Assembly (NCBI GenBank): GCA_027488845.1
Contig: JAIYBC010000057.1
Location: forward strand, 62,001-126,000
Direction of reading: 5' to 3'
Origin: Verrucomicrobiales bacterium
GTDB taxonomy: Bacteria > Verrucomicrobiota > Verrucomicrobiia > Limisphaerales > UBA9464
DNA length: 64,000 nucleotides
Of this stretch, positions 4,018 through 64,000 are shown piece after piece. The notes under the pieces were generated by a model. It did not search any database. It was not told the origin of the DNA and saw nothing but the letters and a program-made list of their open reading frames with translations. The position numbers were made by a program, and so were the translations under genes. Numbering within the stretch: the stretch's first letter is position 1; every line of letters starts with the position of its first letter.

Positions 4018-5820
4018 TTACTTGGCCAGCTCGAGGGCGGCGTTGAGGATTTCCCGGACCTTCCAGGTCAGGCCGTCGACCTTGGTGATGCCACGGATCT
4101 TGGCGTCGGGGATCTGGCTCCGGATGAGGGCGCCCATCTGGCCGACGCCGGAGTAGCCGCCGTCGTTGAGCTCGACCACGAACACGTGGCGGAAGCCGGC
4201 GAAGAGGTCCGCGAGGCCGGGCGGAAGCGGATTGATGTAGCGGACGTGCAGCGCCGAGATGGCGTGACCCTGGGCGCGGCCCTGCTTGACGGCCTCCTGG
4301 ACGGGACCCTGGGAGGAACCCCAGCTGACCAGCAGGATCTGGCCTTCCGCGGGACCGTAGAACTTGGGCAGCGGGAACTCGCTGGCCAGCTTCTTCAGCT
4401 TGTTGCGCCGCTTGGCGATCATCTGCATGTGGGTCTTGCCGGAGCCCGTGGGATGGCCCATCTCGTCGTGCTCGAGGCCGGTGACCACGGGGTACTTGCC
4501 GCTCGCGACCCGGGTGCCCGGGGCGATGTGCCGGGTGACGCCGTCCGGGGCGGACAGGTCGTAGGGCTTGTGGTCGGTGACCGCGGTGAGGTCGGGGGAG
4601 ATGTCCTGGACCAGCGCCTTGAGGTCGGGTTCCTTGAACGCCTCGATGCGGGTCGCGATGCCCTGGTCGGAGAGGATGAACACCGGGGTGCTGTACTTGC
4701 GGGCGATGTTCACGGCCTCGATCGCGGTGTAGAAGCAGTCCTCGACGTTCGCCGGGGCGATCACCACGCGGGGGCAGTCGCCGTGGCCGCCATGGACGGC
4801 GATGTTGATGTCCGACTGCTCGATGTTGGTCGGCATGCCGGTGGAGGGGCCGCCGCGCATGACGTCGACCACGATCAGGGGCATCTCCGCCATCACCGCC
4901 CAGCCGATGGCCTCGGTCTTGAGGGCGATGCCGGGACCGGAGGAGCCGGTGACCGCCACGCCGCCGGACCAGCTGGCGCCGATGGCCATGGAGACGGAGG
5001 CGATCTCGTCCTCGCACTGCTGGAACTGGCCGCCGTACTTGGGCAGTTCGCGGCGGAGGAGCTCCATGATGTCGGACCACGGGGTGATCGGGTAGCCGGC
5101 GCCGAACCGGACGCCCGCGGCGATCAGGCCGTAGGCGAGGGCTTCGTTGCCGCTCATGACCACCTGGGCCTGGCCGACGTTCTCACCCGGCTGGAACTGG
5201 AACAGCTCCGGCGCGGTGGCGAGGGTGTAGTTGTAGCCGTAGTTGAAGGCGTTCAACGCCGTCTCGAGGATCTTCGGGTCCTTGCCGGTGAAGCGCTCGG
5301 TCAGCAGCTTGTGCAGCTTGGGCACGTTGAGGTCGAACATCTTGGCCAGCAGGCCGAGGGCGAAGACGTTTTTGCCCTTGTCGCGGCCGGTGCCGCCGAT
5401 GGCCTCGATGGTCAACGAGGAGATCGGAACCCCCACGTGACGGTACTTGGTCAGGTTCTCGGCCGGGATGTCCTCGGCCTTCAGGTGGTCCGAGTCGTAG
5501 AGGACGATGCCGCCCTTCTTCAGGGATCCGAGGTGGGCGAGGTAGCTGTGGTCGTAGAAGGCCAGCAGCAGGTCGGCCTCGTCGCCGGAGGAGAGGACCT
5601 CCCCGGATCCGATGCGGACCTGGAAGATCGAGGGACCGCCCGAGATGGTGGACGGGATGGTCATGAAGGTCATGACCTCCTGCTCGGAACGGCCCGCCAG
5701 GCGGGCGAGGAAACCGCCGATGGCCTGGATGCCGTCCTGGGAATTTCCGGCGATACGAATCACCGCCTCGGAGATCTTCGAGATCTGGGGCGATGAGCTG
5801 GGTGTGGCTGCTGTGCTCAT
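4018..5820 (-). CDS. korA: 2-oxoacid:ferredoxin oxidoreductase, fused gamma-alpha subunit
   Basis: 600 residues. The N-terminal third is the gamma domain (GIQAIGGFLARLAG, then VLSSGDEADLLLAFYD); the rest is the alpha subunit, with NEALAYGLIAAGVRFGAGYP and ITPWSDIMELL near residues 215-250 and RGGPSTGMPTNIEQSDINIA further on. This domain order marks the two-subunit KorAB type, not the four-subunit POR type. It is the first gene of the korAB operon. A sigma70-like promoter with an A/T-rich upstream element lies at 5905-5932, and the leader holds a long hairpin. There is no clear Shine-Dalgarno sequence before the ATG. Length and motifs look intact. Confidence 0.93.
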   Translation of the reverse strand: MSTAATPSSSPQISKISEAVIRIAGNSQDGIQAIGGFLARLAGRSEQEVMTFMTIPSTISGGPSIFQVRIGSGEVLSSGDEADLLLAFYDHSYLAHLGSLKKGGIVLYDSDHLKAEDIPAENLTKYRHVGVPISSLTIEAIGGTGRDKGKNVFALGLLAKMFDLNVPKLHKLLTERFTGKDPKILETALNAFNYGYNYTLATAPELFQFQPGENVGQAQVVMSGNEALAYGLIAAGVRFGAGYPITPWSDIMELLRRELPKYGGQFQQCEDEIASVSMAIGASWSGGVAVTGSSGPGIALKTEAIGWAVMAEMPLIVVDVMRGGPSTGMPTNIEQSDINIAVHGGHGDCPRVVIAPANVEDCFYTAIEAVNIARKYSTPVFILSDQGIATRIEAFKEPDLKALVQDISPDLTAVTDHKPYDLSAPDGVTRHIAPGTRVASGKYPVVTGLEHDEMGHPTGSGKTHMQMIAKRRNKLKKLASEFPLPKFYGPAEGQILLVSWGSSQGPVQEAVKQGRAQGHAISALHVRYINPLPPGLADLFAGFRHVFVVELNDGGYSGVGQMGALIRSQIPDAKIRGITKVDGLTWKVREILNAALELAK

Positions 5821-5847
5821 TTGAAAAATCGTCTTATGCCGCTGAAA

Positions 5848-5890
5848 AACCCGCGGGCGGAAGATTAAGCCATCTTCTGCGGCGCGGGTT
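5848..5890 (-). promoter_or_regulatory. Long hairpin in the korA leader
   Basis: An inverted repeat has outer arms AACCCGCG (5848-5855) and CGCGGGTT (5883-5890) and inner arms AAGAT and ATCTT around TAAGCC, with an imperfect middle. It lies between the proposed promoter and the korA start, 28 bases from the ATG, so it would be transcribed into the leader. There is no U-tract, so it is unlikely to be a terminator. It could affect mRNA stability or translation. Confidence 0.5.
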
Positions 5891-5904
5891 GCAGGTCGCG
5901 TGAC

Positions 5905-5932
5905 ATCCTAGATTGGACCCGTTGTGGGTCAA
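5905..5932 (-). promoter_or_regulatory. Candidate sigma70-type promoter of korAB
   Basis: On the minus strand TTGACC (5927-5932) and TAGGAT (5905-5910) are separated by 16 bp. Immediately upstream, 5941-5963 is strikingly A/T-rich for this genome (ATCATCAATATATCTTAAAA), in the place of an UP element. The korA start is about 85 bases downstream. Confidence 0.55.
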
Positions 5933-6206
5933 GCGACCTGAATCATCAATATATCTTAAAATACGGGGCTTTTGCATTAGTTCACTCCGACCGAAAGCTC
6001 CTCAACGCCGCCGTCGGATCGGCTTTCCGGGCCGAATGGGCGTCGGCCAGGGATGGACCACGGCGACCGGAAAACCCGAAGTCGAGCGTCCCCGGGCCGA
6101 TCCGGAACACACCGGAACTGGTGCCGACCCAACGCGGATTGCGTCACGTTCCCGTCGCATTGGAATTCCAATGGCGCCCATTCGACGAATGTCTAACGTT
6201 TCGTTC

Positions 6207-59099: not shown

Positions 59100-61133
59100 T
59101 CAGCGGGCCGGATTGGAGGCGAGCCAGGCGCGGATCGCCGCCGCCTGAGGATGCGCCGGCTCGATCGCCAGCACCGCCTCGTAGTGACGTCGAGCGCGGC
59201 GGACGTCGTCGAGTTCCCCGGCATACAGGGCGGCCGCGGCCAGGTGTAGAGCCGGGTCGGCCGGACGCGCGGTGAGGATCTCCTCGAGCTGTTCCGCGGC
59301 GTCCGCGGTGTGGCCCGCCTGCTTCAGGGCGACGGCGAAGTTGCGTCGGGATTCCACGTCGTCCGGCTTGAGCTGGAGTGCGTTCTCGCTGGCGAGCAGG
59401 GCGAGCGGGAGGTCGCCTTGGTCGAGGGCCACCAGGGCGAGGTTGAAGTGGGATGCGAAGTGGGTGGGGTCGGCCGCGGTCGCCCGACGGTAGCCGGACG
59501 CGGCGGAGGCCAGGTCCCGACGGCGTTGCGCCTCGGCGGCGGCCTGGAACTCGCGGTTGGCCTCCGACGCATTGCCCGGTTGGAGCGGGCGCGTGGCCCG
59601 GGGCACATAGCGCGGTGGGGCCGGGCGTTCCATCCGCAGCGCCGGTGCGGCCGGGATCGGCGTCGCGGCCACGCGCCGGGGTTCGGGCTTCGGCGCGGTC
59701 GGCGCTTCCGGTTTCGCCGGATCGGCCGCCTTCGCGGTCAGGACCTGGGGCTCCGTGGTCGCCGACGGCGTGTCGGGCGAGTCCGGTTTGGCATCGGATC
59801 CGCGGCGGAACCATTTGACCGGGTTCCCCCAGCTCACCGGGTTCATCTTCTGCCAGACCGACCGCTTGGTGACCGGTTCGGCGACCACGGTGAAGTCCGT
59901 GGGCCCCGTCCCGGAAGGTTCCGTCGGAACCGCGTTGGCCGGAGACGGTCCGGGGGAGGCGGCGGCGGCCTCACCCGCCGAGGGGACCTTGACCTCGGGG
60001 GGGGCATCCTTCGCGGCGACCAGTGGGGCTTCGTCCTCCACTTGGACCACCTCCACCGGAGTCGGCGGCGGGACGACCGGCTTCGTCTCCGTCGTCGTCG
60101 TCGCGACGGCGGTGGGCCTGCCAGGTGTGGAAGCCCCGACGGTTGGTCGTGGAGTCGCGGTGGGCTGCGGCGAGGGAGCCGCCGGCGCCGTGGCGACCAG
60201 GTTGGTCGGTGCCGGAGGGTTCGCCGCGGTCGGGCGCGGGGCGGTGGGACGTTGGAGTGGGGCGGCCGGGGGATTGGTCCGTGGAAGCGTTTGCGGCGGG
60301 TTCGTCCGCGGCGCCGGGGAATTGGTCATCCCGAGGCTGGGCCGGGCGATGTAATTGGTGGATTCGGTCCGTGGGGGGAGGTTGCCGCCCAGCCGGGCCT
60401 CGAGTTGGCGGACGAGGCCGGAGACACCGGGTGCCTCGGGTCTGCCGGGGTTTGCGGCGAGCCAAGCCCGGTAGAATCCGATGGCGGCGGCCGGGTCGCC
60501 GAGGTGTTGGTGGTGGAGGATGGCGAGGTTGAGCAGGACGGAGGGATGGTCCTGGGAAAGCCGCCGCGCCCAAAGGAAGCGGTCGCGGGCCTCGCGGAAG
60601 CGTCGTTTCTGGACACTGATCATGCCGAGCGTGTTCCACTCCTCGACGCCGGCGGCCTCGAAGCGCTTGGCGGTGGCGAGGCTGCGCTCCGCGTCGTCGA
60701 GACGCCCGGCATGGAACTGGACCGAACCGAGACGCGCCCAGGCGACGCCGTCCTCGGGACGTGCGGCGAGGTAGGTGCGGAGGGAACGTTCGGCCTCGAG
60801 CCAATCCGAGCGGCCCTCGTGGACGAGGGCCAGGTTGTGGTGGGCCTCGACGAGGCTGCGGTCGAGCTCGAGGGCGCGGAGATAGGCGCGGCGGGCCTCG
60901 TCGGGCCGACCGGCGGACTGGTAGGCGAGTCCGAGGTGGTTCAGGGCCGCGGCGCTGCGGGGCAGGGTCTCCACGGCCCGCTCCAGCATGCGGACGGCGT
61001 CGGGGGTACGGCCTTCGCGGAGGAGGCGGTCGCCTTCGACGAGGGCGCGTTCACCCGACGGGTTGCAGCCGGTCGCCAGGAGCATCAGGGCGGCCACGGC
61101 GGCGACGGGACCGGCCTTGGAAGGGGACAGCAT
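59100..61133 (-). CDS. TPR-repeat lipoprotein
   Basis: 677 residues. The lipobox is LLATGC, with Cys23 as lipid-anchored residue. Residues 30-240 hold several TPR repeats (ALNHLGLAYQSAGRPDEARR, VEAHHNLALVHEGRSDWLEA, GVAWARLGSVQFHAGRLDDA). A Pro/Thr/Ala-rich linker of about 230 residues follows, then two or three TPRs at the end (FASHFNLALVALDQGDLPLA). It is a surface or periplasmic scaffold; partners are unknown. The linker is low complexity. Confidence 0.85.
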   Translation of the reverse strand: MLSPSKAGPVAAVAALMLLATGCNPSGERALVEGDRLLREGRTPDAVRMLERAVETLPRSAAALNHLGLAYQSAGRPDEARRAYLRALELDRSLVEAHHNLALVHEGRSDWLEAERSLRTYLAARPEDGVAWARLGSVQFHAGRLDDAERSLATAKRFEAAGVEEWNTLGMISVQKRRFREARDRFLWARRLSQDHPSVLLNLAILHHQHLGDPAAAIGFYRAWLAANPGRPEAPGVSGLVRQLEARLGGNLPPRTESTNYIARPSLGMTNSPAPRTNPPQTLPRTNPPAAPLQRPTAPRPTAANPPAPTNLVATAPAAPSPQPTATPRPTVGASTPGRPTAVATTTTETKPVVPPPTPVEVVQVEDEAPLVAAKDAPPEVKVPSAGEAAAASPGPSPANAVPTEPSGTGPTDFTVVAEPVTKRSVWQKMNPVSWGNPVKWFRRGSDAKPDSPDTPSATTEPQVLTAKAADPAKPEAPTAPKPEPRRVAATPIPAAPALRMERPAPPRYVPRATRPLQPGNASEANREFQAAAEAQRRRDLASAASGYRRATAADPTHFASHFNLALVALDQGDLPLALLASENALQLKPDDVESRRNFAVALKQAGHTADAAEQLEEILTARPADPALHLAAAALYAGELDDVRRARRHYEAVLAIEPAHPQAAAIRAWLASNPAR

Positions 61134-61228
61134 GGGATGCGTGGTTAACGGCGGGTGTGTCGTGCGTCAAGGAGGCCGGTCATTGGGGACCGGTGGCCGG
61201 GGATTCCGGGTCGACCGACTGGATCGGA

Positions 61229-61313
61229 TGGTGGGCGCGACAGGACTTGAACCTGCACGGCTTTCGCCAATGGATCCTAAGTCCATCGTGTCTGCCAATT
61301 CCACCACGCGCCC
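61229..61313 (-). tRNA. tRNA-Leu (UAG)
   Basis: The minus strand begins GGGCGCGTGGTGGAATTGGC at 61313. The anticodon stem ATGGA/TCCAT encloses CTTAGGA, giving anticodon TAG (UAG). A long variable arm, T arm GTTCAAGTCC, acceptor CGCGCCC, A discriminator and encoded CCA at 61229-61231 follow. It lies downstream of cimA on the same strand. Confidence 0.95.
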
Positions 61314-61321
61314 GTTGGAAT

Positions 61322-61345
61322 CCATGCGTTCCGGGGAACGCATGG
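61322..61345. repeat. Perfect inverted repeat upstream of tRNA-Leu(UAG)
   Basis: CCATGCGTTCC (61322-61332) and GGAACGCATGG (61335-61345) pair over 11 bases with a 2-base spacer. It is 8 bases before the tRNA 5' end, in the spacer between cimA and the tRNA. It could be a processing structure or an operator. Confidence 0.5.
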
Positions 61346-61378
61346 ACAGGTGCTAGGCGGTCGGAGGCCGAATTGCAA

Positions 61379-61399
61379 ACCCCGGGTGAACCCCGGGGT
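61379..61399 (-). terminator. Candidate weak terminator after cimA
   Basis: ACCCCGGG/CCCGGGGT arms with a 5-base loop are followed on the minus strand by TTGC, so the U-tract is poor. It lies 64 bases past the cimA stop. Confidence 0.4.
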
Positions 61400-61462
61400 C
61401 CCTGAAACCGACTCCGACCGCTGCGGAGCGACGGCCGCCGCGGACGGAGCCGCGACGGGAGC

Positions 61463-63028
61463 CTACTTCTTCAGCAGCGCGAACTCCATGGAGTCCACGA
61501 GCGCCTCGAGCGAGGCGGAGATGATGTTCTCGCTGACGCCGACGGTTCCCCATTCGCGCCTTCCGTCGGTGCTCTGGATCAGCACGCGGGTCTTGGCGCC
61601 GGTGCCGGCGACGCCGTCGAGGATGCGGACCTTGTAGTCGGTCAACGACAGCTTGCGGATCTGCGGGAAGGACTTGGCCAAGGCGGAGCGCAGGGCGCCG
61701 TCGAGGGCGTTCACCGGGCCGTCGCCCTCGGCGACCGTGTGGTGCACCTGGTCGCCGACGCGGACCTTCACGGTGGCCTCGCACACCGCGCCACGGGTGT
61801 CGCCCCGCATCGAGACGTGGTACGAGTCCACGGAGAAGAGCAGTTCCGGGTTGTTGTCCAGGACGCCGCGGATGAGCAGGGCGAGGGAGGCCTCGGCGGC
61901 CTCGTACTCGTAGCCGAGGTTCTCGCGTTCCTTGATCCTGGCGGTGATGGCCTTGGTCTCCGGCTGGTCCGGGGCGAGCTTGAAGCCGAGCTCCGCGGCC
62001 TTCACGAGGATGTTGGTGCGGCCGGACATGTCGCTGACCAGCACGCGGCGGTGGTTGCCGACGGATTCCGGGGCGATGTGCTCGTAGCTGCGGGCGACGC
62101 GTTCGATGGCGTGGACGTGGATGCCGCCCTTGTGGGCGAAGGCGGTCTGGCCGACCCAAGGCTGGCGCGGGTCATGGCGCATGTTCGCGATCTCGTCCAC
62201 GTACTCGGACAGCTCCTTCAGCTTCGGCAGCGACTTCGTGGGGACGCCGCGAAGGCCCATCTTGAACTGCACGAGCGGGATGACGCTGGTGAGGTTGCAG
62301 TTGCCGGTGCGTTCGCCGTAGCCGTTGACGACGCCCTGGATGTGGGTGGCCCCGGCCTCGAGCCCGGCGATGCCGTTGGCCACGCCGAGCCCGCAGTCGT
62401 TGTGGGTGTGGATGCCGATCCGGGTGGTCAGGCGGCCCTTGGCGACCGCGGTGATGCGGGCGATCTCGGACGGCAGGCATCCGCCGTTGGTGTCGCAGAG
62501 GCAGATCACGTCCGCACCCGCCTTCTCCGCCGCCTGCCACGTGGCCAAGGCGTACTCGGGCTCGTCCTTGAACCCGTCGAAGCTGTGCTCGGCGTCGTAC
62601 ACCACCGTCTTCCCGTGGTCCTTCAGGTAGCGGATGGTGTCCGCGATCATGGCGAGGTTCTCGTCGGGCTTCGCGCGGAGCACCTCGGTGACGTGGAGCA
62701 GCCAGGTCTTGCCGACGATGGTGACCACGGGGGTCTCGGCATCCAGCAGCATGCGGATCTGGTCGTCCTGTTCGACTGGGACGCCCTTGCGCCGCGTGAA
62801 GCCGAAGGAGGCGATCCGGGCGTTCCGCCAGCGCCGCTTGGCGGCCTGCTGGAAGAACTCGAGGTCCTTGGGATTGGATCCCGGCCAACCGCCCTCGATG
62901 TAGTGCACGCCGAACTGGTCCAGGCGCTCGGCGATTCGGATCTTGTCGGCGAGGGAGAAGTTGATGCCCTCGCCCTGGGATCCGTCGCGGAGCGTCGTGT
63001 CGTAGATTTCGACCTGCTGTGGCTTCAT
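61463..63028 (-). CDS. cimA: Citramalate synthase
   Basis: 521 residues from the ATG at 63028 (MKPQQVEIYDTTLRDGSQGE). CimA condenses pyruvate with acetyl-CoA to citramalate, the first step of threonine-independent isoleucine synthesis. The family start YDTTLRDGSQGEGINFSLAD and GVHYIEGGWPGSNPKDLEFF mark CimA over isopropylmalate synthase; THNDCGLGVANGIAG and GYGERTGNCNLTSVIPLV complete the barrel, and the C-terminal LeuA-type allosteric domain is at the end (LTDYKVRILDG). An in-frame extension upstream to 63316 runs through a hairpin and is rejected. The gene is preceded by a leader peptide and attenuator-like structure. Confidence 0.92.
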   Translation of the reverse strand: MKPQQVEIYDTTLRDGSQGEGINFSLADKIRIAERLDQFGVHYIEGGWPGSNPKDLEFFQQAAKRRWRNARIASFGFTRRKGVPVEQDDQIRMLLDAETPVVTIVGKTWLLHVTEVLRAKPDENLAMIADTIRYLKDHGKTVVYDAEHSFDGFKDEPEYALATWQAAEKAGADVICLCDTNGGCLPSEIARITAVAKGRLTTRIGIHTHNDCGLGVANGIAGLEAGATHIQGVVNGYGERTGNCNLTSVIPLVQFKMGLRGVPTKSLPKLKELSEYVDEIANMRHDPRQPWVGQTAFAHKGGIHVHAIERVARSYEHIAPESVGNHRRVLVSDMSGRTNILVKAAELGFKLAPDQPETKAITARIKERENLGYEYEAAEASLALLIRGVLDNNPELLFSVDSYHVSMRGDTRGAVCEATVKVRVGDQVHHTVAEGDGPVNALDGALRSALAKSFPQIRKLSLTDYKVRILDGVAGTGAKTRVLIQSTDGRREWGTVGVSENIISASLEALVDSMEFALLKK

Positions 63029-63063
63029 GTGCTTTGTCTTCGATGTTGTCGGCAGTGCCGGTC

Positions 63064-63106
63064 GGGAAAAACGAAAAACCCCGTTCCGGCGGCGGAACGG
63101 GGTTTT
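63064..63106 (-). promoter_or_regulatory. Attenuator (terminator hairpin) in the cimA leader
   Basis: On the minus strand AAAACCCCGTTCCG (63106-63093 side complement) and CGGAACGGGGTTTT form a perfect 14-bp stem with a 4-base loop (63075-63088 and 63093-63106), followed by T-CG-TTTTT. It lies between the leader peptide and cimA. The leader's own GGGTTTCGG (63174-63166) can pair with CCGAAAACCCC (63109-63099), which overlaps one arm of the terminator and gives an antiterminator. Confidence 0.7.
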
Positions 63107-63119
63107 CGGGAAAACTCGT

Positions 63120-63176
63120 TCAACGCCGCGGGACGCGGGGAATAATGATCCGGGAAATGACGGTTCCGAAACCCAT
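63120..63176 (-). CDS. Putative isoleucine-rich leader peptide of cimA
   Basis: 18 residues, MGFGTVISRIIIPRVPRR, then TGA. It has the consecutive codons ATC ATT ATT (Ile-Ile-Ile) plus another Ile and two Val, close to the stop, and sits 13 bases before a strong terminator hairpin and 92 bases before the cimA start. The pattern VIS...IIIP resembles, from memory, the Escherichia coli ilv leader peptide (VISVVVIIIPP). Ribosome stalling at Ile codons would permit an antiterminator. No Shine-Dalgarno sequence is obvious, and the call rests on layout. Confidence 0.65.
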   Translation of the reverse strand: MGFGTVISRIIIPRVPRR

Positions 63177-63396
63177 GCCGATGCCATGGGCCGGACCCCG
63201 GGAATCGGGGACCTGCATCTGGCCAAGGCAGGAGGACTGGTTTGTGGAATCGCGCAACGTGGGCTTCTTGTCGTCCAGGGCGTCGATGGTGGCAAGGTCG
63301 GATTCGCTACGGCCACGCCGGTGTTCGGTGGCCTGGACTCCTTCGGCCCTCCTCGACATCCGCCTCCCGGTCGCGTCCCATTCTGGAGCGTCCAAC

Positions 63397-64000
63397 GTGA
63401 ATCCCTTCCGTTCCATGTTGCTTGCGGCCCTGTTGACCGGAATCCCGTCGGCGGCCGCGGATCCAGCCGATCAGGCGTTTCCGATCGGCGTTCCGGGATC
63501 GTCGACGGAATCCGTGCGCCCCGGTCCGGCGCCGCGGATCCGCATGGAGCGTTCGGGACGGTCCGAATGGCCCATCCGGCTGCGCTTCCGCGACGTCGCG
63601 GAGACCGGCCGTTCCCAGACGCTCCAGCGTTGGATTCCTCCGGGACCGTGGCGGAACGCGGGACTGGTGCCGCCTTCCGGCTCCGGTGTCGACGCCGCGC
63701 TCCCGGTTCCCGACGAGGGGGTGGTTCTCTACCGGTTGGTCGAGTCGACGAACCGCACCGTGGTCCGGCAATGGTTCACCGGAAACCCGGACACGCGCAC
63801 CGCCGTGATCCCGGCGCCGCAATTGGGTGAGCCATGGTTCGTCCGGGGCATCGGCTGGACCCAATGGACGCAGGCCCGGGTGGCCTTCGGCATGGTGGTC
63901 GACGAGAATCCGCTTCAGCAGGTGACCTATCTCTGCCAGAGGCTGCCCGACCGGCCGACACGGATGGAGGCCACCGTCGAATGGCATCCGTACCACAGCA
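63397..64000 (+). CDS. Exported protein of unknown function (partial)
   Basis: The frame is open from a GTG at 63397 (an ATG at 63415 is an alternative) to the window edge, about 201 residues. The start has a signal peptide (NPFRSMLLAALLTGIPSAAA). The body has no recognised domain; visible pieces are PIRLRFRDVAETGRSQTLQR, YRLVESTNRTVVRQWFTGNP and VTYLCQRLPDRPTRMEATVE. The gene is divergent from cimA, and its end is outside the window. Confidence 0.7.
   Translation, partial: MNPFRSMLLAALLTGIPSAAADPADQAFPIGVPGSSTESVRPGPAPRIRMERSGRSEWPIRLRFRDVAETGRSQTLQRWIPPGPWRNAGLVPPSGSGVDAALPVPDEGVVLYRLVESTNRTVVRQWFTGNPDTRTAVIPAPQLGEPWFVRGIGWTQWTQARVAFGMVVDENPLQQVTYLCQRLPDRPTRMEATVEWHPYHS

Follow-up and report, generated by a model that had tools for sequence, protein, structure and literature searches.

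The cimA gene of a Verrucomicrobiales bacterium is, with a probability that we put at about 90%, controlled by a ribosome-mediated transcription attenuator that would sense isoleucine. The prediction concerns a 64,000-nucleotide stretch (hereafter the window) of a 5.39-Mb genome (G000) and relies on comparison of its sequence with those of relatives. A preliminary description, made from the letters of the window alone, had placed an isoleucine attenuator before cimA; it was right in substance, and its interpretation is supported by the leaders and structures of relatives. The alignment of relatives' cimA upstream regions, which it had proposed as a check, revealed conservation of the Ile codons, the order of the parts, the stop-to-hairpin spacing and two alternative structures. 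By computational comparison, an Ile-rich frame with a conserved stop codon is followed by a terminator and accompanied by a second predicted pairing; the two pairings are mutually exclusive, and the two sides of the second have changed together.

All elements lie on the minus strand of the window. The cimA gene (61463-63028) encodes a 521-residue protein, identified from its translation as citramalate synthase (TIGR00977 equivalog, 688.5 bits versus a cut-off of 450). A tRNA-Leu gene (61229-61313, minus strand) is found approximately 150 nt downstream of cimA. The upstream neighbour, assigned from its reading frame only, lies on the plus strand, with GTG 63397 as its probable start, and is divergent from cimA. 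The two frames, apparently divergent, are separated by 368 nt, and the hairpin in the gap points toward cimA; because the upstream frame is divergent, this hairpin does not appear to mark where an upstream protein gene ends. The leader peptide frame (MQVPDSRGPAHGIGMGFGTVISRIIIPRVPRR, 63120-63218) comprises 32 codons and a TGA stop codon (63120-63122) situated within a conserved TGAACG box. The putative regulatory codons ATC ATT ATT (63149-63141) are three consecutive Ile codons at positions 9 to 7 before the stop, as had been noted before, and an additional in-frame Ile codon, ATT, is located at 63156-63158. The Ile-rich frame of the preliminary description stands, but its length of 18 codons, counted from ATG 63176 (which opens the frame MGFGTVISRIIIPRVPRR), probably does not. 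In the three closest leaders (the window and its two nearest leader-bearing relatives, G012 and G005; CimA 97-100% identical), ATG 63218 is present in all three, and ATG 63176 is absent from G005, which makes ATG 63218 the likely common start. The leader thus probably begins at ATG 63218, giving the frame of 32 codons, with ATG 63176 as the alternative. No clear ribosome-binding site was seen by eye at the leader start.

The set used for comparison consisted of 40 distinct leaders, which are not 40 independent cases because many of them are closely related. CimA was located directly downstream by tblastn in 39 of them, and the remaining one (L192) stops at a contig edge. L184, which the regular expression had picked up by chance and which has no CimA nearby, was removed before the Ile and pairing counts, and L195 and L196 duplicate L060 and L061. 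Four covariance-model (R1) matches before cimA that the regular expression had missed (L179-L182) were kept outside the 40; the last 20 codons of these contain 5, 2, 1 and 2 Ile codons, respectively. In the 20 codons preceding the conserved stop, Ile accounted for 158 of 800 codons in frame, compared to 15 and 21 in the other two frames. When 25 codons were considered, Ile took 180 of 1000, whereas 2000 shuffles yielded 31.3 on average (sd 5.1) and never more than 49. At least three Ile codons were present within the last 20 codons of 32 leaders, the other eight having only one or two; in 24 of the 40, the final Ile codon stood at a distance of 7 or 8 codons from the stop. Examples of the encoded peptides are MIGSIIIISGHRPC, MYPIAIGIIAIGPGPCR, MNKFIGIRIMIAARCRR and MRFNLSIQAIGLIGQIEQIGIRKIPGRSESRYC, each running to the stop codon. 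A predicted in-frame start codon precedes the Ile codons in every leader (34 ATG, 5 GTG and 1 TTG). Once six pairs with more than 18 differences in 60 positions had been set aside, synonymous and non-synonymous differences between close leaders numbered 25/78 in frame, compared with 16/81 and 21/73 in the two other frames, which indicated a weak bias.

The intrinsic terminator hairpin (63074-63107, stem GAAAACCCCGTTCCG / CGGAACGGGGTTTTT) has 15 base pairs and a 4-nt loop and runs into U-tracts (TTTTT CG TTTTT, 63064-63078). The stem-loop, its 4-base loop and the U-tracts had been recognized in the preliminary description; the stem of 14 bp and the gap of 13 bases given there have to be corrected to 15 pairs and 12 nt (63119-63108). 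A scan of 3 kb for terminator patterns returned three sites compared to a shuffle mean of 1.9, the site in the cimA leader having 15 pairs and the other two 5 each. The terminator segment of the window folded with z = -3.76, and the entire 113 nt with merely z = -1.61. A hairpin pattern derived from the window terminator was searched in ten genomes and matched a single site, immediately upstream of cimA, in eight of them, with 0 control matches; the remaining two (G020 and G033) carry stem variants. The terminator is kept between the leader frame and cimA in relatives, with some compensatory changes: 98.8% of 336 cells were paired, and both sides had changed in 3 of 14 pairs. Downstream of the leader stop, the CCCCGTTC arm follows after 15-25 nt in the 40 leaders and the extrapolated cimA start after 62-119 nt in 39. 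The consensus fold displays the terminator only, and this tells against a T-box or another ligand-binding riboswitch, an explanation to which we give next to no credence. It would have a precedent in the T-boxes that regulate branched-chain amino acid genes in Bacillota, according to the available text of PMC12452182. In Rfam, the region 62500-64000 yielded ten weak matches (E up to 10), all below the gathering score and none of them a T-box, and nothing reached the gathering score at nine relative, ilvB and leuA loci except rRNA and a group I intron.

The second structure is formed by a predicted antiterminator 5' arm, GCGGCG(TT)GAACG(A)GTTTTC (63110-63129), which overlaps the leader stop codon, and a 3' arm, GAAAACCCCGTTCCGCCGC (63089-63107), which corresponds to the terminator 5' arm plus loop. 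The preliminary description was correct that an alternative antiterminator exists and that it uses the terminator 5' arm, but the partner proposed there, GGGTTTCGG (63174-63166), was not the conserved one, as the conserved arm spans the stop. Pairing of GGGTTTCGG with the terminator 5' arm was found in only 3 of the 40 leaders (the window leader L003, L006 and L131), and pairing from this region was hardly above shuffles (mean z -0.61, 3/40 below -2, window -1.52). Another drawing of the antiterminator was tried and was no better than the stop-spanning arm. The core of the latter (GAACGnGTTTTC with GAAAACCCCGTTC) was paired in 93.7% of 252 cells in relatives. It exhibited little covariation of its own, the count of double-changed pairs being reached in 173 of 500 shuffles, which is expected because the arm is shared with the terminator. 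In the window, the predicted energies of the two segments are similar (terminator -23.1 kcal/mol, antiterminator -22.7 kcal/mol).

The decisive evidence for the predicted antiterminator is the pairing upstream of this core, where the terminator loop, otherwise free to vary, pairs with the last codons ahead of the stop. Single-sequence folds make this loop pairing visible in most leaders, e.g., CCGGGTCGT-T-GAACG with CGTTC-C-GCGATCCGG in L060. When own and foreign loops were compared across all 40 leaders, the mean pairing energies were -11.67 and -8.84 kcal/mol, respectively, a difference reached in 0 of 20000 permutations. For the 11 strongly diverged leaders (differing at 10 or more of 26 positions) the values were -11.57 and -7.90 kcal/mol (0 of 50000 permutations), and four shifted-window controls on these leaders gave 12127 to 40891 of 50000. 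The result was the same, 0 of 50000 each, at difference thresholds of 4, 6, 8 and 10 (32, 27, 18 and 11 leaders, respectively), and none of the 16 shifted controls fell below the 3432 of 50000 obtained at threshold 6 with shift 15. A single-linkage version with 8 representatives was weaker (390 of 20000). Only 3 of the 11 diverged leaders paired best with their own loop; the preference is an average trend and no lock and key.

These data bear on the possibility that the Ile run arose by chance and that an unannotated small RNA, encoded on the minus strand, ends at the hairpin, which would then be an ordinary or insulating terminator. Such an origin would suit a hairpin that is strong and almost symmetric, with matches scoring on the plus strand as well, and a locus in which a scan of 61000-64000 located no sigma-70-like promoter. 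It is nevertheless very improbable: the recurrence of Ile codons in one frame across the 40 leaders largely refutes it, in the genomes searched the hairpin goes together with cimA, and own terminator loops are on average better partners for a leader than foreign ones.

The geometry of the leaders, with the control codons upstream of an arm that spans the stop, is that of an attenuator in which the position of the ribosome would select the structure. RNA polymerase would transcribe the short leader frame, whose Ile codons lie 7-9 codons ahead of the stop. When charged tRNA-Ile is abundant, the translating ribosome would reach the stop codon and mask the arm at 63129-63110; the terminator at 63107-63074 could then form and transcription would end before cimA. 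When tRNA-Ile is uncharged, the ribosome would stall at the Ile codons, approximately 20 nt or about one footprint upstream, leaving the arm free to pair with the terminator 5' arm and loop as an antiterminator, and cimA would be transcribed. The size of the ribosome footprint and the kinetic order of events are established for trp-type attenuation. We infer that transcription starts upstream of the leader, that the leader is translated, that stalling occurs and that the response has the direction described.

The distribution of the element was determined from loci and whole genomes of relatives. The CimA search gave matches in 58 of 59 genomes, the own genome included and paralogues counted, and 30 cimA loci were fetched from it, 28 of which belong to the same family. 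Among these, 26 are uncut, and in all 26 the same hairpin comes after TGAACG (TGAGCG in L025). The contigs of the other two, L005 (G013:C45) and L007 (G015:C33), end at, or no more than about 10 bases 5' of, the attenuator hairpin, probably as an effect of assembly. The two fetched loci from other families (L029 and L030) are without the TGAACG-hairpin element. Covariance model R1 matched (E <= 1e-3) in 43 of 50 family genomes, 26 of 28 good genomes and all nine genera; the 43 include G013 and G015, which are cut by a contig end, and G061, whose match (1.5e-4) is not at cimA. Several weaker second matches were also away from cimA, and no CimA was seen near the matches L183-L191. Of the seven R1-negative family genomes, five (G002, G003, G006, G009 and G018) have no close CimA and two (G059 and G072) were outside the CimA search. 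The former represent 5 of the 19 genomes of the genus, are without a close CimA or an attenuator match, and are possibly isoleucine auxotrophs or incomplete bins. Across the order, R1 at 1e-6 was detected in 48 of 320 genomes, namely family members together with five from family f13 and one from f27, in a search whose filters may lose weak matches. In a sample of the phylum, 2 of 387 genomes matched: one is the own genome, and the other has a weak match (L241, 9.8e-7), by eye an apparently ordinary terminator with no Ile-rich frame. By these sequence searches, the predicted element is restricted to a single family, apart from a few genomes in two other families of the order.

Candidate leaders were also identified in the same lineage before two other branched-chain amino acid genes. 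The ilvB gene was identified by TIGR00118, above cut-off in 15 of 16 genomes. All 15 ilvB loci read, that of the own genome (L222, G000:C10; MSTAIVLVPVVVGGIAAAGSCRA) included, have a strong conserved hairpin (CCCACGGC..GCCGTGGG plus U-tract) and, 21-23 nt ahead of it, the end of a leader frame. Their frames are Val/Leu-rich and appear to constitute a second attenuator family. At leuA, a Leu-rich frame precedes a conserved CCCC..GGGG hairpin in 12 of 15 loci, families f3 and f22 included; the own-genome leader (L206, G000:C31) reads VTVFGNLRLPSALRLRGAADGRC, and no such leader was found in L208-L210. The assignment of leuA as 2-isopropylmalate synthase was checked in 3 of the 15 loci (NF002991, 751-764 bits, cut-off 455), the remaining 12 being assigned from weak CimA matches. 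The ilvB and leuA frames were first chosen by a threshold on I+V+L, after which all frames with a stop 12-45 nt before the terminator were listed; two candidate frames were present at 3 of 15 ilvB loci, where the one resembling the other loci was taken. In 24-codon windows, the cimA leaders contained I 179, L 46 and V 35 of 960 codons, the ilvB leaders V 72, L 29 and I 8 of 360, and the leuA leaders L 66, V 25 and I 14 of 288. For ilvB and leuA, only the split between I, V and L is a fair test because of the way in which the frames were chosen. By these counts, Ile prevails in the predicted leaders of cimA, Val in those of ilvB and Leu in those of leuA, in each case the amino acid of the branch to which the gene belongs.

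This match bears on whether ribosome stalling is the controlling event. The leader could be translated and the terminator could work while expression depends on something other than classical stalling-controlled antitermination, e.g., general leader translation or Rho. No protector hairpin stands out in the cimA leaders: the 1:2 (protector or pause) pairing had a mean z of -0.23, with 3 of 40 leaders below -2, and there was no excess of pairing over shuffles. In other attenuators, a protector hairpin is optional. A candidate ilvB leader of Streptomyces coelicolor has reportedly been unresponsive to changes of its candidate codons, as told in the available sections of PMC1262725. We consider control of this kind unlikely, as it leaves without evident purpose a stop-spanning antiterminator that co-changes with the terminator loop, the preferred distance of 7-8 codons and the amino acid match at three genes. 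Control by stalling at Ile codons remains the preferred reading for cimA.

Outside the lineage, 67 other named cimA loci were scanned for at least four Ile in eight codons. Five loci were found, three of which also have a terminator-like hairpin: L065 (Patescibacteria group), L077 (Candidatus Taylorbacteria) and L090 (Candidatus Staskawiczbacteria), the last two of which we take to be Patescibacteria. In the class of the L077 genome, CimA was detected at 1e-60 in 4 of 383 genomes, three of them new (L203, L204 and L205). The cimA leader of L203 (MQKIVKKIIGFISIVIIRRKFFTLVCA) is followed by a hairpin with a U-tract. By eye, L204 has a Ser-rich mini frame (MFNLKSSQSSIMISKPSSF) and then a terminator-like hairpin, not Ile-rich, about 85-145 nt upstream of cimA, and neither a leader frame nor a hairpin was seen in L205. 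An Ile-rich leader with a terminator-like hairpin is thus present in 4 of 6 cimA loci in or near Patescibacteria (L065, L077, L090 and L203), and hand-chosen segments of L065, L090 and L203 fold into an alternative pairing. On the contig of L065, an SSU rRNA and group I intron match (4535-5969) lies downstream of cimA. The CimA proteins of L065 and L077 are 77% and 73% identical to that of the window, which suggests gene transfer of cimA. The leader RNA sequences differ from those of the Verrucomicrobiota family and are apparently unrelated. It is rather likely, judging from these comparisons, that the whole branched-chain amino acid pathway of these uncultured Verrucomicrobiota is wired by three separate attenuators (Ile at cimA, Val at ilvB and Leu at leuA), and that the sequence-unrelated Ile attenuators of cimA in Patescibacteria have either arisen more than once or diverged beyond recognition.

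The ilv/leu leader peptides of Proteobacteria are ribosome-mediated attenuators of branched-chain amino acid genes. The cimA leaders share with them a short frame with codons of the own pathway and an exclusive antiterminator/terminator pair before a biosynthetic gene; they differ in the target, cimA, in the dominance of Ile codons, in an antiterminator arm that extends across the leader stop and whose pairing includes the terminator loop, and in the lack of a conspicuous protector hairpin. The preliminary description knew such leaders from the ilv operons of Proteobacteria, and there they do occur, but they are not limited to that phylum: ilvB leaders with branched-chain amino acid codons have been predicted in Actinobacteria (PMC1262725), and the ilvB uORF of Corynebacterium (ilvB-II motif) is reported to act by attenuation (PMC10272879), as far as the available text of these two papers goes. 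Both resemble the cimA leaders in having a uORF rich in these codons with a terminator or attenuation proposed, and they belong to another gene and another phylum; the actinobacterial frames overlap the terminator in the available text of PMC1262725, whereas the cimA leader frame ends before it. The ilvB-OMG and ilvB motifs, conserved leader RNAs that the accessible portion of PMC10272879 reinterprets as uORF attenuators, precede ilvB and not cimA, and no Rfam family reached its gathering score here. No attenuator or leader for cimA or citramalate synthase was found in the open-access literature, mostly without subscription papers and including the available parts of PMC13158618 and PMC3223726, and none for Verrucomicrobiota in the same body of literature; the main text of PMC2965389 mentions neither Verrucomicrobiota nor cimA. 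The mechanism is classical and known; the target cimA and the Verrucomicrobiota lineage are apparently new for attenuation. The predicted attenuator would provide a control logic, concrete and open to test, for isoleucine synthesis through citramalate in a lineage that is largely uncultured. It also offers comparative work a clean example of leader, stop codon and terminator loop changing in concert.
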